IMG/VR virus record: IMGVR_UViG_3300014932_000113
Span: 1-33,597 of that record
Reading direction: 5' to 3' (one strand)
Source: a virus
DNA: 33,597 bases
The notes beneath the pieces are model-generated. The model did not search any database. It was not told where the DNA came from and worked only from the letters and a program-made list of their open reading frames with translations. The translations under genes were made by a program, and so were the position numbers. Below, in pieces: positions 1,595-26,383 of this stretch. Every line of letters begins with the position of its first letter. The stretch's first letter is position 1.

Positions 1595-1616
1595 AAAAGC
1601 GCCTTTCGGCGCTTTT
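1595..1616. terminator. Bidirectional intrinsic terminator between convergent gene blocks
   Basis: A perfect 9-bp stem AAAAGCGCC/GGCGCTTTT with a 4-base TTTC loop is followed by a T run on the plus strand; on the minus strand the A side of the stem supplies the U tract. It lies between the stop of the 65-residue plus-strand gene and the stop of the 682-residue minus-strand gene, whose TAA begins one base after the stem. It should therefore end both the left plus-strand cluster and the long late transcript. Confidence 0.88.
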
Positions 1617-3665
1617 TTATTTCCTATTGATTTGCTTACCGGTTACTGGGTCATATACTCCAACATCCCCAGTTTGGCTAGTTAACGCATTTAACGCTGG
1701 GAAAGCATGAGTATACGGATTACCTGGATTAGCAAACAATAAACCTTTTACTAAATCCTTATGTAAAGCGTAATCAGTAACCGCACCACCCACTAGACCC
1801 GCCGCAGTCTGTAAAGTTGTTGATGGATTAATTAAGCCAAGCAAAGCGCCTACGGCCTTATTTTGATTACCAGTACGTGGAGTTTCAAAAGCGCTTACGC
1901 TGCGACGTGTAGCTTGAGCAATGTCGTTTACGTCTTGGATTTGATTAGATAAAGCCGTTGGGGTAGCCATTACTTTTTGAACCATTGGGTCTTGAAGATT
2001 CAAAGTATTTACAAAACGCATTGGGCTAACACCGGCTTTACTACGCTCGTCTAGACCAGCTCCTAAAGCGCGGTTTACTAATTCGGTTTGAGCTACTTCA
2101 GCAGAACCTGGGCCAGCACGATTCATTGCGATTTCGGCGGTATTAGGTTTGTTTGGTCTAAATAAGCGAGCCATAATGTTATCGCTGGCTATCGCTAATT
2201 CTTCTTGAGTAGCTTTTGGATCAACTACCTTTTTAAAGATAGCATTATTCTTATAAGGCACAACATTGCCCGAATAGAATTTATCAGCAACGCTATATGC
2301 TTTCGCGGCATCTGGATTAGTCTTGGCTAAATCTTCAGCCCAACCTCTAACGTCGGTACTTAGATTTTTGTAGAGTTGATCCAACTCTCCCGATATTGGT
2401 TTACCTTGACGAGCAGCAGCGCGAGCTTCCCCACCAATGAGCGTTCTAGCATCTCGCATTGCGCTATAAGGAATTGTTTGCAATTCACCAGCTTTTGCAG
2501 AAGATAAGATCTTTTTAACAGATTCTGGAACATCTGGTGACTCCAAATATTTAGGATATTCGGCTAAAAAGGCTTTAGCTTTAGCCGCAAAATTATCTAC
2601 AGGAATAACATTAGAGCCAGGAACGTTAATCAAAGCAGTATTAACATCGTCATACAACTTAGTTGCAGTTGTACGATTGGCGTTATATTGACCACGTAAT
2701 CCTTCAATCATTTGCGCGCCAGGCGCAGTTTCTGGTAAAGAAGCGTCTAAGCGGTTTAGCATGGCCTTAGTCTGAGCGGCTTGCTTTTGCATAAATGCAT
2801 CACGGCCGGTACCGGGTAAATCTTGAGTAAAGTTTTCGATAACTGTAGCCGTACGATTGCCCAGATCACCAGCAGAAAGTTCAACACCTTCGGCTTTAGC
2901 CTTGGCATTAATGGCCATTGCTTTCTCACCTTCGGGAGTGTAATTACCGGCTTTGTAATTTCCATATCGCTGACCAAGAATATTGGCACCGATAGTTGTT
3001 AATAAGTTAGCAGCAATTGAAGTACCTGGACCAAACCCAAACTCAGATGCAGTTTGCCCCGCCCCGCCACCTAAAGCGCTAGATATTACTTGAGAAGCTG
3101 GACCTTCAGCCAATTGCTTGGCAACAGTAGAAGTAACCGGGGCGGTTGTTTTAGCAATTTGATTCGCTAATCCTACCGGAGCCATAGCGGAGAAACCTTG
3201 TTTAGTCATCTCGCCAATAACGCGTTCCGGTGCTGTTTGGGGTTTTGGTAAACCAATCATATCAGCCAGATTAGTCATAGATTGGCTAACATTATTAAAT
3301 CTTTGTTTAGATCCTAAAGCTTCAGATCCTTTATTCATAGCATAGGCAAGGGGTGCCCCTACCAAATCGAGGATTTGTGGTAAGCCTTCTGCCGCATAAC
3401 GAGCTGTTAAGCCTGTTTGACGAACAGCTTGATTAGCCAAATTTTCTAACATACCTGGGGCAGTACCACCTGCTGGCATTGGAGCTAAACCAGAAGGTTT
3501 AACTACTTTACCCTGAGCAATTAGATCAGCCTCATTAGGCATACCTGAGCTTTCGGATTTACCCGACGGAGCAGGAGATGGTTCGCCCGGAATATAAGCT
3601 TTTCCAGCCGGACTTATAACGGTACCTTTATCTAGAAGGTCTGCTTCTGTAATCTTTTCGGCCAT
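1617..3665 (-). CDS. Large putative ejection or internal virion protein
   Basis: A 682-residue protein, last gene of the late block. Two near-copies of a 20-residue element open it, at about residues 7-26 (EADLLDKGTVISPAGKAYIP) and 45-64 (EADLIAQGKVVKPSGLAPMP). A long Ala/Gly-rich region with hydrophobic helical stretches follows (about 80-240), then a charged helical C-terminal half. Place and composition fit the large internal or ejected proteins that podoviruses carry after the tail genes. I do not recognise a catalytic domain. The assignment rests on position, size and composition only. Confidence 0.6.
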   Translation of the reverse strand: MAEKITEADLLDKGTVISPAGKAYIPGEPSPAPSGKSESSGMPNEADLIAQGKVVKPSGLAPMPAGGTAPGMLENLANQAVRQTGLTARYAAEGLPQILDLVGAPLAYAMNKGSEALGSKQRFNNVSQSMTNLADMIGLPKPQTAPERVIGEMTKQGFSAMAPVGLANQIAKTTAPVTSTVAKQLAEGPASQVISSALGGGAGQTASEFGFGPGTSIAANLLTTIGANILGQRYGNYKAGNYTPEGEKAMAINAKAKAEGVELSAGDLGNRTATVIENFTQDLPGTGRDAFMQKQAAQTKAMLNRLDASLPETAPGAQMIEGLRGQYNANRTTATKLYDDVNTALINVPGSNVIPVDNFAAKAKAFLAEYPKYLESPDVPESVKKILSSAKAGELQTIPYSAMRDARTLIGGEARAAARQGKPISGELDQLYKNLSTDVRGWAEDLAKTNPDAAKAYSVADKFYSGNVVPYKNNAIFKKVVDPKATQEELAIASDNIMARLFRPNKPNTAEIAMNRAGPGSAEVAQTELVNRALGAGLDERSKAGVSPMRFVNTLNLQDPMVQKVMATPTALSNQIQDVNDIAQATRRSVSAFETPRTGNQNKAVGALLGLINPSTTLQTAAGLVGGAVTDYALHKDLVKGLLFANPGNPYTHAFPALNALTSQTGDVGVYDPVTGKQINRK

Positions 3666-9596: not shown

Positions 9597-10304
9597 TTAG
9601 GCTTTCATAATGTATGCGAGTGCATAGTACGGTGGCAAATTGGCGTTAGTTCCGCTTGTACCAGTAGAAGCATTAGAAACAGTAATTCCAGTTGTAGAAG
9701 TTCCTGTATTTGTAGTGCCAATAGCATTTGGATTTCCTGAAGCCGCTTGTCCTGGCCCACCAAGAAGAACTGCACCTGAATGTAAATGGCCTGGATCAGT
9801 TACGGTTGCCGTATGGGTATGGGTAACTACAATTGAATCAGCAGAACCACCAGTTGCCGCTACGGCATAGGTATCACCAGCGCCAATAACAAATCTATTT
9901 TTTAAATTAGGAGTGCTATTTGTGCCATCGCATAAATACCAACCAGTTGGGACGCTAGCAATTGAGCCCGACCACAACATGATCATGCCAGTAACAAATG
10001 CATTACCCCAAGTAGGTGTTGCGCTAGATCCTGCTGAAACTAATACTTGGCCAGAAGTACCAACAGAACCGCTAAGTTTAAGTTGACCAGTAATGTTTTG
10101 AATACCAGAAACTGTTTGAGTTCCGGCAACGGTAAGCGTTTTTCCGGAGCCTACATTTAGGCCTACTGAAGTGCCAGTTCCATCGCCCTTAAAAATACCG
10201 TCAAGGGTATCTAAGTCAGTATTAAGCTTGGTTCCCCAGGTATCGGTTGACGCGCCAACTTCTGGCTTTGTCATTCCTAGGTTCGTGGTGGTGGTATCTG
10301 CCAT
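9597..10304 (-). CDS. Tail collar-domain fibre protein
   Basis: A 235-residue protein. The N-terminal part (1-100) is Gly/Thr-rich beta structure opening [20 protein letters not shown], a start often seen on phage fibre proteins. A collar domain follows at about 106-143 with [20 protein letters not shown]. The C-terminus has a His-rich [15 protein letters not shown] segment (161-175) like the metal-binding region of T4 gp12-type fibres, and ends [13 protein letters not shown], the normal end of the domain. It is likely a distal tail-fibre or spike component that touches the cell surface. It is the last of the fibre genes before the lysis cassette. Confidence 0.82.
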
Positions 10305-24573: not shown

Positions 24574-24602
24574 TTGACAAAAACAAGAAGTAGTGTTATA
24601 AT
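24574..24602 (+). promoter_or_regulatory. Early-arm consensus sigma70 promoter
   Basis: On the plus strand: TTGACA (24574-24579), 17-base spacer, TATAAT (24597-24602) with a TGT extension. All twelve core bases match. The two promoters share TGTTATAATTAC. Their -35 boxes are 46 bases apart, and that spacer contains ACAAC twice (24542-24546 and 24560-24564), the half-site of the 18-bp repeats further on. Transcription would start near 24609, about 1,040 bases before the first clear start codon. Confidence 0.92.
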
Positions 24603-24793: not shown

Positions 24794-24913
24794 CTTAGCC
24801 TGTCCAGGCACAACCCTACCCCTTGTTTTAAAAATTACATCAGCGTCATAAATAGCGTTATATATATAATTAAATAATTCTTTTTTTCCCTCCCCACCCT
24901 GGCACTTTAGAGC

Positions 24914-25104
24914 GTTGTTTCTATACCACACTGTTGTATCCACACCACAGTCCTAGCACGTTGCTGCGTTGTTTCTATACCACACTGTTGTTTCTATACA
25001 ACACTTATGATCATGTGTTGTTTTTATACCACACTATCTAACTCTGTCACGTTGCTATATAGTTTCTTTGAAGTTCCTGGAAGAGTGTTGTTTCTACGCA
25101 ACAG
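24914..25104 (+). repeat. Array of six 18-bp iteron- or operator-like repeats
   Basis: Consensus GTTGTTTCTATACCACAC. Copies start at 24914, 24933, 24968, 24987, 25017 and 25087; the first four form two pairs with exactly 19-base spacing, and the 26-base block 24912-24937 recurs without change at 24966-24991. The unit is a weak dyad (GTTGT at one end, ACAAC or ACCAC at the other; the 24987 copy is most symmetric). A seventh copy in inverted orientation lies at 25536-25553. Such arrays serve as replication-initiator or repressor sites in phages and plasmids; which applies here is open. Confidence 0.8.
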
Positions 25105-25154
25105 TCTGGTGAGTCTGTCCCCATTACTATGTGGTTGCACCAAAGCTGTGCAGG

Positions 25155-25326: not shown

Positions 25327-25535
25327 CAATTCAATTCTAAAGCCCTTTATAGGCTCTCTCAGCCCTTTTCCGTGATTCCCTTGCCTTAGTATGTCCAAGC
25401 GACGATCTCGATTTTCCTGGTGTAAACCCTAATACATATAGAACCCATGTCTTATGACTTTTTGTTATATCGCCCAACTGTGAACTACATTTCACATTGT
25501 GAGAAAACCCCTAAACTAAGGGTTATCCCTAATAG

Positions 25536-25553
25536 CTGTGGTGTCGAAACAAC
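25536..25553 (-). repeat. Inverted seventh copy of the 18-bp repeat
   Basis: Read on the minus strand this is GTTGTTTCGACACCACAG, matching the repeat consensus at 15 of 18 positions. It lies 430 bases from the main array and 100 bases before the first early gene, in opposite orientation. Confidence 0.7.
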
Positions 25554-25605
25554 ACTTTATTCATTACAATAAATACATCGGAACAGAACAACGAACCGAT
25601 ACAAA

Positions 25606-25620: not shown

Positions 25621-25652
25621 AATGATTACTAACCAATAAGGAATAGAACAAA

Positions 25653-26047: not shown

Positions 26048-26058
26048 GGAATATGAAA

Positions 26059-26136
26059 ATGAAAAATTGGCAAGCCGTACTCCTCACAATCGCTCTATTC
26101 ATCGTGGCACAGATTGTATGGCACTATACTAAATAG
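26059..26136 (+). CDS. Very small single-pass membrane protein
   Basis: A 25-residue protein, MKNWQAVLLTIALFIVAQIV followed by WHYTK: one hydrophobic segment with a short basic tail. ATG 26059 keeps the same spacing to AAGGA as in the gene before; an ATG six bases earlier is possible. Its stop codon is the last base before the hammerhead stem I. Small membrane peptides are frequent in phage early regions. Confidence 0.55.
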   Translation: MKNWQAVLLTIALFIVAQIVWHYTK

Positions 26137-26187
26137 GCTAACTGATGAGGCTTGATGAGCCGAAACACTCGAGAGAGTGTATTAGTC
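26136..26187 (+). ncRNA. Type I hammerhead ribozyme
   Basis: All core positions fit. Stem I 5' strand GGCTAA (26136-26141), CTGATGA (26142-26148), stem II GGCT/AGCC (26149-26152, 26158-26161) with loop TGATG, GAAA (26162-26165), stem III CACTC/GAGTG (26166-26170, 26175-26179) with a GAGA tetraloop, then T26180 pairing with A26165, A26181 as the nucleotide at the cleavage site, and stem I 3' strand TTAGTC (26182-26187), which pairs with GGCTAA over six pairs including one G-U. Both ends of the RNA lie in stem I, so it is type I; cleavage is expected after A26181. It is in the early transcript strand, between two small genes, starting on a stop codon. Cleavage has not been shown here. Confidence 0.88.
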
Positions 26188-26221
26188 AAACGAAACACTA
26201 CCCTTAAAGGAAATAGAAACC

Positions 26222-26383
26222 ATGAGCACAAGAAATTATCTTATTGAACAGTATTTAGATTTTCGTAATAACTATCTGACCATCGATACATTCGCTGACC
26301 ATCAAGGCATGACAAACGAGCAAGCCAAAGCACTAATCGATTTAGGCAGAGACTTATTTAATACTAAAAACATTCACGCATAG
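26222..26383 (+). CDS. Small early protein, possible helix-turn-helix
   Basis: A 53-residue frame, MSTRNYLIEQYLDFRNNYLT at the start, then IDTFADHQGMTNEQAKALID, which has the spacing of a helix-turn-helix. I recall small early phage proteins of similar form (YLDFxNNxLTxxxFA). AAAGGA lies upstream. It is the first gene after the ribozyme, so it would head the 3' cleavage product, which would carry a 5'-hydroxyl end. DNA binding is a guess. Confidence 0.65.
   Translation: MSTRNYLIEQYLDFRNNYLTIDTFADHQGMTNEQAKALIDLGRDLFNTKNIHA

Follow-up and report, generated by a model that had tools for sequence, protein, structure and literature searches.

A compact type I hammerhead ribozyme on the stop codon of an early phage gene, a probable intercistronic processing site

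Why would a phage place a self-cleaving RNA between two of its early genes? The question is raised by an element at positions 26136–26187 of a 33.6-kb IMG/VR virus sequence from a freshwater phage, the whole of which (33,597 nucleotides) is referred to here as the window. Hammerhead ribozymes of all types were described in bacteria and prophages by Perreault et al. in 2011; in that study, intergenic prophage hammerheads flank single genes or small gene blocks, mRNA processing was proposed as their role, and three clusters cleave in vitro, one of them also in E. coli (PMC3088659). The role of prokaryotic and phage hammerheads was still listed as an open question in a 2017 review (PMC6155905). 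The basic idea of a hammerhead between phage genes has been known since 2011, and the window ribozyme is a further example of it.

The minus strand of the window carries head and packaging genes, including those of the portal, the terminase large subunit and the major head protein. On the plus strand, a series of small genes begins at ~25.6 kb and leads to genes for a cytosine-5 DNA methylase and a T7-type primase-helicase. The early region yielded no match to named phages by BLAST. An earlier note on this DNA had proposed a type I hammerhead in the early transcript, overlapping the stop codon of a gene for a short membrane peptide and cleaving after A26181. The present analysis supports the ribozyme, its overlap with the stop codon and its predicted cleavage site, and it finds the surrounding early genes to be co-directional. 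The elements of the locus are as follows.

24574–24602, plus strand: candidate early promoter, TTGACA-17-TATAAT with an extended −10 TG (12 of 12 consensus positions; predicted activity)
26059–26136, plus strand: membrane peptide gene of 25 codons, MKNWQAVLLTIALFIVAQIVWHYTK (open reading frame list)
26135, plus strand: A adjacent to stem I on the 5' side, invariant in the subtype
26136–26187, plus strand: type I hammerhead ribozyme (fold, motif scanner and jackknife covariance model)
26136–26141, plus strand: stem I, 5' strand GGCUAA (read directly; fold)
26142–26148, plus strand: core CUGAUGA (read directly)
26149–26161, plus strand: stem II, 13 nt, consisting of GGCU, the loop U26153-G-A26155-U-G26157 and AGCC (fold)
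26162–26165, plus strand: core GAA and A15.1 (read directly)
26166–26179, plus strand: stem III, CACUC-GAGA-GAGUG with a GNRA loop (fold; pairing kept in the relative L157)
26180–26181, plus strand: U16.1 (26180) and A17 (26181), with the predicted cut between 26181 and 26182
26182–26187, plus strand: stem I, 3' strand UUAGUC (read directly; fold)
26188–26189, plus strand: AA adjacent to stem I on the 3' side, where A26188 is proposed to make a tertiary contact with the final loop II base
26182–26221, plus strand: 40-nt leader of the downstream mRNA after predicted cleavage, with AAAGGA at 26206–26211
26222–26383, plus strand: downstream small early gene, 53 aa, function not assigned (open reading frame list)

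The element contains every conserved position of the hammerhead core (C3 U4 G5 A6 N7 G8 A9, G12 A13 A14, the A15.1-U16.1 pair and H17). Three helices surround the core in the type I layout, in which stem I is open and stems II and III are closed by loops, and this layout is exactly that of the minimum-energy fold. Stem I consists of 6 bp, including one G-U pair. The peptide gene, which has 27 codons if counted from the ATG at 26053, ends with the TAG at 26134–26136, and its last base, G26136, doubles as the first base of stem I. The peptide has no match in PHROG, and the 53-aa downstream product shows weak matches to PHROGs that lack a known function.

The window element is real, conserved and almost surely a hammerhead, as judged from its core and three stems, its fold, shuffled sequences and a covariance model. 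The minimum-energy fold of 26130–26200 is exactly the hammerhead (−17.1 kcal/mol, z −3.1). The strict motif was absent from 300 first-order shuffles of the window and the relaxed motif occurred three times in 100 shuffles; reversed-sequence controls gave no scanner matches, compared with ~100 real ones. To avoid circularity, this phage and its kin were left out of the training of a jackknife covariance model, which was built from 25 hammerheads of other phages. The window hammerhead scores 63.6 bits with this model (E 4e-14), and the next-best place in the window reaches 14.9 bits. The search revealed no further hammerhead within the window; a weak model match of 15.9 bits at 10152–10225 on the plus strand lies antisense to a minus-strand gene and was taken as chance.

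The fold depends on how much surrounding RNA is included. In a long in silico context, the window hammerhead lies 2–3.4 kcal/mol above an alternative fold and its stems have a probability of ~0.01 or less, as calculated for secondary structure, with tertiary contacts and irreversible cleavage outside the model. The long-context fold of the window includes pairing with the upstream coding region. A conserved anti-ribozyme role of this pairing was rejected, as it is absent in the relative L124 and appears in the relative L157 only in the longest contexts. The hammerhead is the best fold of L124 in all contexts tried and that of L157 with up to 40 nt per side.

The Rfam search that the earlier note had suggested gave a discordant result. 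At gathering thresholds, Rfam 15 does not match the window hammerhead, which is the covariance-model half of the outcome that the note had listed against its own claim. The best library score is that of RAGATH-1 (19.5 bits, threshold 56.3); Hammerhead_3 gives 13.4 bits (threshold 48.5). However, a match to a curated covariance model at threshold is a practical test of a hammerhead and not a defining one, and the same search also fails on dozens of other unmistakable hammerheads of this kind. The Rfam miss therefore reflects the coverage of Rfam, not the window element. No hammerhead was reported by Rfam 15 at its own thresholds in 16 loci that hold ~45 such ribozymes, and the best phage members tested score 23–30 bits with Hammerhead_1 (RF00163), whose threshold is 34.

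The hammerheads overlooked in this way compose a compact subtype that is common in phage contigs. A first set was collected from viral contigs with a core-only pattern (ACTGATGAG...CGAAAC), and only matches with the full type I fold were retained; with the relatives included, it contains at least 89 distinct ribozymes in at least 55 loci. Stem I has 6 bp in 65 of the 89 ribozymes among the set 1 matches listed and the relatives. In the 71 members with a stem I of at least 6 bp, the preceding base is A in 92%, a G-C pair closes stem I in 94%, and the first and second bases after stem I are A in 83% and 74%, respectively. Stem II most commonly spans 13 nt (61 of 71), usually with a U-N-A-N-U loop. 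A second set was collected from other contigs with a class-specific pattern that does not require stems I and III. It added at least 111 new matches, and the full type I fold is found in 106 of 111 among the matches listed. In at least 102 of these 106 members, an A directly follows the sixth position of stem I; the cleavage-site base H17 is C in 96 and A, as in the window, in ten.

Base pairing in the subtype is maintained through sequence change. Across 28 phage members, which were chosen for pairing, 11 of the 16 pairs vary on both sides, and where a single phage has several copies, their stem sequences diverge but still pair. The class-specific pattern occurs in 11 stretches of 257 Gb of bacterial genomes, several of which are short contigs of metagenome bins, and the subtype thus appears nearly absent from bacterial chromosomes. 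Two isolated phages carry it unannotated. In Pelagibacter phage Jormungand (L292 5000–5076; MT375528, 38211–38287), the hammerhead is located downstream of ardA genes, inside a gene annotated as hypothetical. The second is Flavobacterium phage elemoB_14-3B (L291 4995–5068; MT497068, 17205–17278, minus strand).

Conserved bases outside the stems suggest a tertiary contact. The base on the 5' side of stem I is A in all 202 members of the class, about half of which was selected with this A required, and the first base on the 3' side is A in 186 of the 202. Mutual information over these members recovers the helix pairs, and the strongest signal outside the helices links position 9 of stem-loop II, the last base of its loop, to the first base 3' of stem I. 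When the flanking base is A, position 9 is U (160 members) or G (21 members); a flanking U is accompanied by A at position 9 in all 14 members that have it, which come from seven contigs, two of them close kin. The window copy has the G/A combination (G26157 and A26188). This covariation supports a direct contact, which is probably a form of the loop II-stem I contact known in hammerheads (PMC6155905, PMC3088659), here made through a base that flanks a bare stem.

The subtype occupies a narrowly defined position with respect to genes, as counted with genes called by simple open reading frame rules throughout. Among the set 1 matches listed, which come from unrelated phages, both flanking genes are co-directional in 69 of 81 cases, and 79% of the ribozymes lie in an intergenic gap, versus 14% of random positions. 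A stop codon lies within 12 nt upstream of the ribozyme in 74% of set 1 (6% at random) and 78% of set 2 (5% at random); when only gaps are considered, the values are 83% and 19%. The stop codon stands directly before stem I or, as in the window copy, is a TAG that shares the first base of stem I. In other members, a TAA ends the 5' strand of stem I, and in L112 the UGA of the core itself is the stop. On the other side, a ribosome-binding site and a start codon follow the cut at a median distance of 30 nt, and in 63% of set 2 the next start lies 15–60 nt past the cut, versus 10% at random. Members typically cut roughly 25–40 nt ahead of the next start, and the window copy cuts 40 nt ahead.

Several phages carry the ribozyme repeatedly. 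Nine hammerheads are arranged in series within 4.3 kb of one record (L294, G001:C1:4440-8726). A 5.8-kb contig (G003, L196) contains eight, and a third record (G002) contains seven in series. In the early regions L294, L196 and L097, with nine, eight and seven serial hammerheads, a ribozyme occupies most of the gene boundaries.

These comparative data support a processing site at a gene boundary. The preferred reading, to which a probability of about 0.7 is assigned, is that a functional type I hammerhead cuts the early polycistronic RNA once, at the boundary between the peptide gene and the next gene, and so acts as an intercistronic processing site. The early RNA would start near the promoter at 24.6 kb, fold and cleave itself after A26181. 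The promoter is a plausible start for this RNA: the same arrangement is found in L124, L125, L127, L128, L131, L135, L139, L153, L157 and L161, and no terminator-like plus-strand site was found between it and the ribozyme. After cleavage, the upstream mRNA would end in a 2',3'-cyclic phosphate 45 nt past the stop codon, with stems II and III as a folded cap, and the downstream mRNA would begin with a 5'-hydroxyl and a 40-nt leader that holds its own ribosome-binding site. The cut could thereby separate the decay and translation of the two mRNAs and serve for insulation or processing. A further hypothesis is gating by translation: with the first base of the ribozyme in the stop codon, its 5' strand would be covered whenever a ribosome terminates there, and cleavage could probably take place only between ribosomes.

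The close relatives of the phage provide a comparative view of the locus. A terminase search identified 67 relative loci, and those with the peptide gene were sought by a DNA pattern. The gene is present in this phage (identical as L122), in L124 (and L192), in L157 and in L128. L124 and L192 have an A-U pair for the G-U of stem I, and otherwise differ only by an A at the variable core position 7 and a C at H17. The stem III sequence of L157 has changed to CCCU-GUGA-AGGG with the pairing fully kept. All of these changes would preserve a working ribozyme and suggest a purifying pattern. Inheritance has kept the peptide gene together with its hammerhead and leader, in a block that corresponds to 26045–26225 in L124 and 26046–26235 in L157, and the downstream genes next to the block differ between relatives. 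Block inheritance beside differing downstream genes fits an insulator. In L128, a 9-bp hairpin (GGGTTTGTC..GACAGACCC) stands behind the peptide gene where the hammerhead would be. No hammerhead was found in the other terminase relatives at E values up to 5. The hammerhead is not essential, since only a minority of the terminase relatives have one and L128 keeps the peptide gene without it.

The relatives also bear on a sequence repeat near the ribozyme. The earlier note had pointed out that CGAAACACT recurs downstream and had suggested that the second copy is perhaps a decayed half-copy or a regulatory pairing partner. The two occurrences (26161–26169 and 26191–26199) are real, and the interpretation was abandoned: the repeat is lost in L157, in which the second copy reads TGAATCACT and the ribozyme CGAAACCCT. 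The second copy overlaps a leader that recurs in this phage (compare ATTACTAACCAATAAGGAATAGAAC at 25623).

The same relatives lend weight to a different function, in which the ribozyme makes a 3' end for the upstream gene only, in place of a terminator or stable hairpin, and what happens to the downstream RNA is incidental. It is the peptide gene, not the downstream gene, that the ribozyme accompanies; the hairpin of L128 occupies its place behind the same gene, and the distance to the stop codon is at most 12 nt in 74–78% of cases. However, a start codon with its ribosome-binding site mostly follows at a tight distance, so that both sides look placed, and this function is considered unlikely. 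A selfish or neutral motif, one that multiplies in the intergenic gaps of phages and does little for its host genome, is more improbable still. Its patchy presence among close relatives, the arrays of related copies in one genome and the frequent occurrence of hammerheads in mobile repeats elsewhere (PMC7761336, PMC3088659) would suit such a motif, but the copies within a phage differ in their stems while the pairing stays, neither a mobile unit nor shared flanks or target duplications were seen, placement is stop-flush and co-directional, and bacterial chromosomes are nearly devoid of the subtype. A chance or inactive look-alike, to which the lack of an Rfam match at threshold might point, is scarcely credible in view of the shuffles, the jackknife model, the compensating change in relatives that keep the hammerhead and the failure of Rfam to match the entire subtype.

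A broader extension of the processing-site reading is tentative and is rated somewhat below even odds. The hammerheads may represent a distinct, compact phage subtype, stabilised by a contact with bases beyond stem I, that serves as a stop-flush, ribosome-gated gene-end cassette. One such cassette, or as many as nine in series, would dice early operons into gene-length mRNAs and allow early genes to be shuffled as insulated units.

Cutting of polycistronic early phage RNA between genes is familiar from the RNase III sites of T7 early RNA. The T7 sites are cut by a host protein, whereas a hammerhead is cut by the RNA itself. Among known ribozymes, the window copy resembles the type I hammerhead of RF00163 in its core, the order of its parts, its open stem I and its closed stem III. 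Unlike RF00163, the phage stem I is a bare 6-bp helix without an internal loop, and the contact between stems II and I seems to use bases just outside stem I; the window copy does not turn up with the RF00163 model at all. RAGATH-1 (RF03152) shares the type I layout, the short open stem I and the short stem II, but the window copy lies far under its threshold, and the RAGATH-1 model differs in its long stem III and in lacking a conserved 3' flank. The clusters in the available text of Perreault et al. (2011) include triple arrangements and pseudoknots, and that text contains neither arrays of seven to nine hammerheads, nor stop-codon-flush placement, nor a 6-bp stem I flanked by A and AA (PMC3088659). 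Descriptions of the subtype, of its placement on stop codons and of the long arrays were not found in the open-access literature, and newer work on phage arrays may exist.

On the purpose of phage hammerheads, a question standing since 2011, the present set offers a precise placement rule: on the stop codon and one short leader ahead of the next start. The relatives constitute natural experiments in which one gene is followed by a ribozyme, a rewritten ribozyme or a hairpin instead, and Jormungand and elemoB are isolated phages in which 5'-hydroxyl ends could be mapped. The locus is valuable mainly because it opens the way to a large, strictly placed phage subtype, which annotation based on Rfam overlooks.

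Additional sequence elements are observed around the early region. A second perfect sigma-70 consensus with an extended −10 (24527–24499, minus strand) diverges from the promoter at 24574–24602 on the plus strand. The two are separated by 46 bp and the pair is kept in many relatives; they are likely to be the early promoters of both arms. Another perfect promoter consensus (23610–23582, minus strand) lies within the terminase gene and is kept in relatives, and it may merely be conserved coding sequence. A near-palindromic 22-nt repeat, GTTGTTTCTATACCACACT, occurs six times within 24909–25106, and a seventh, weaker copy at 25536–25557 directly precedes the first early gene; the set looks like an operator or iteron array. 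The early-leader motif CTAAGGGTTNNNCCTAATAG at 25516–25535 recurs in relatives (L128 6732, minus strand; L131/L132) and forms part of the 9-bp hairpin that takes the place of the hammerhead in L128, with a promoter or a processing hairpin as its possible role. Elsewhere in the window, a strong GC hairpin with A/U tracts (1596–1631, minus strand) has convergent genes on either side and a sub-threshold match to STnc130, and is probably a terminator.
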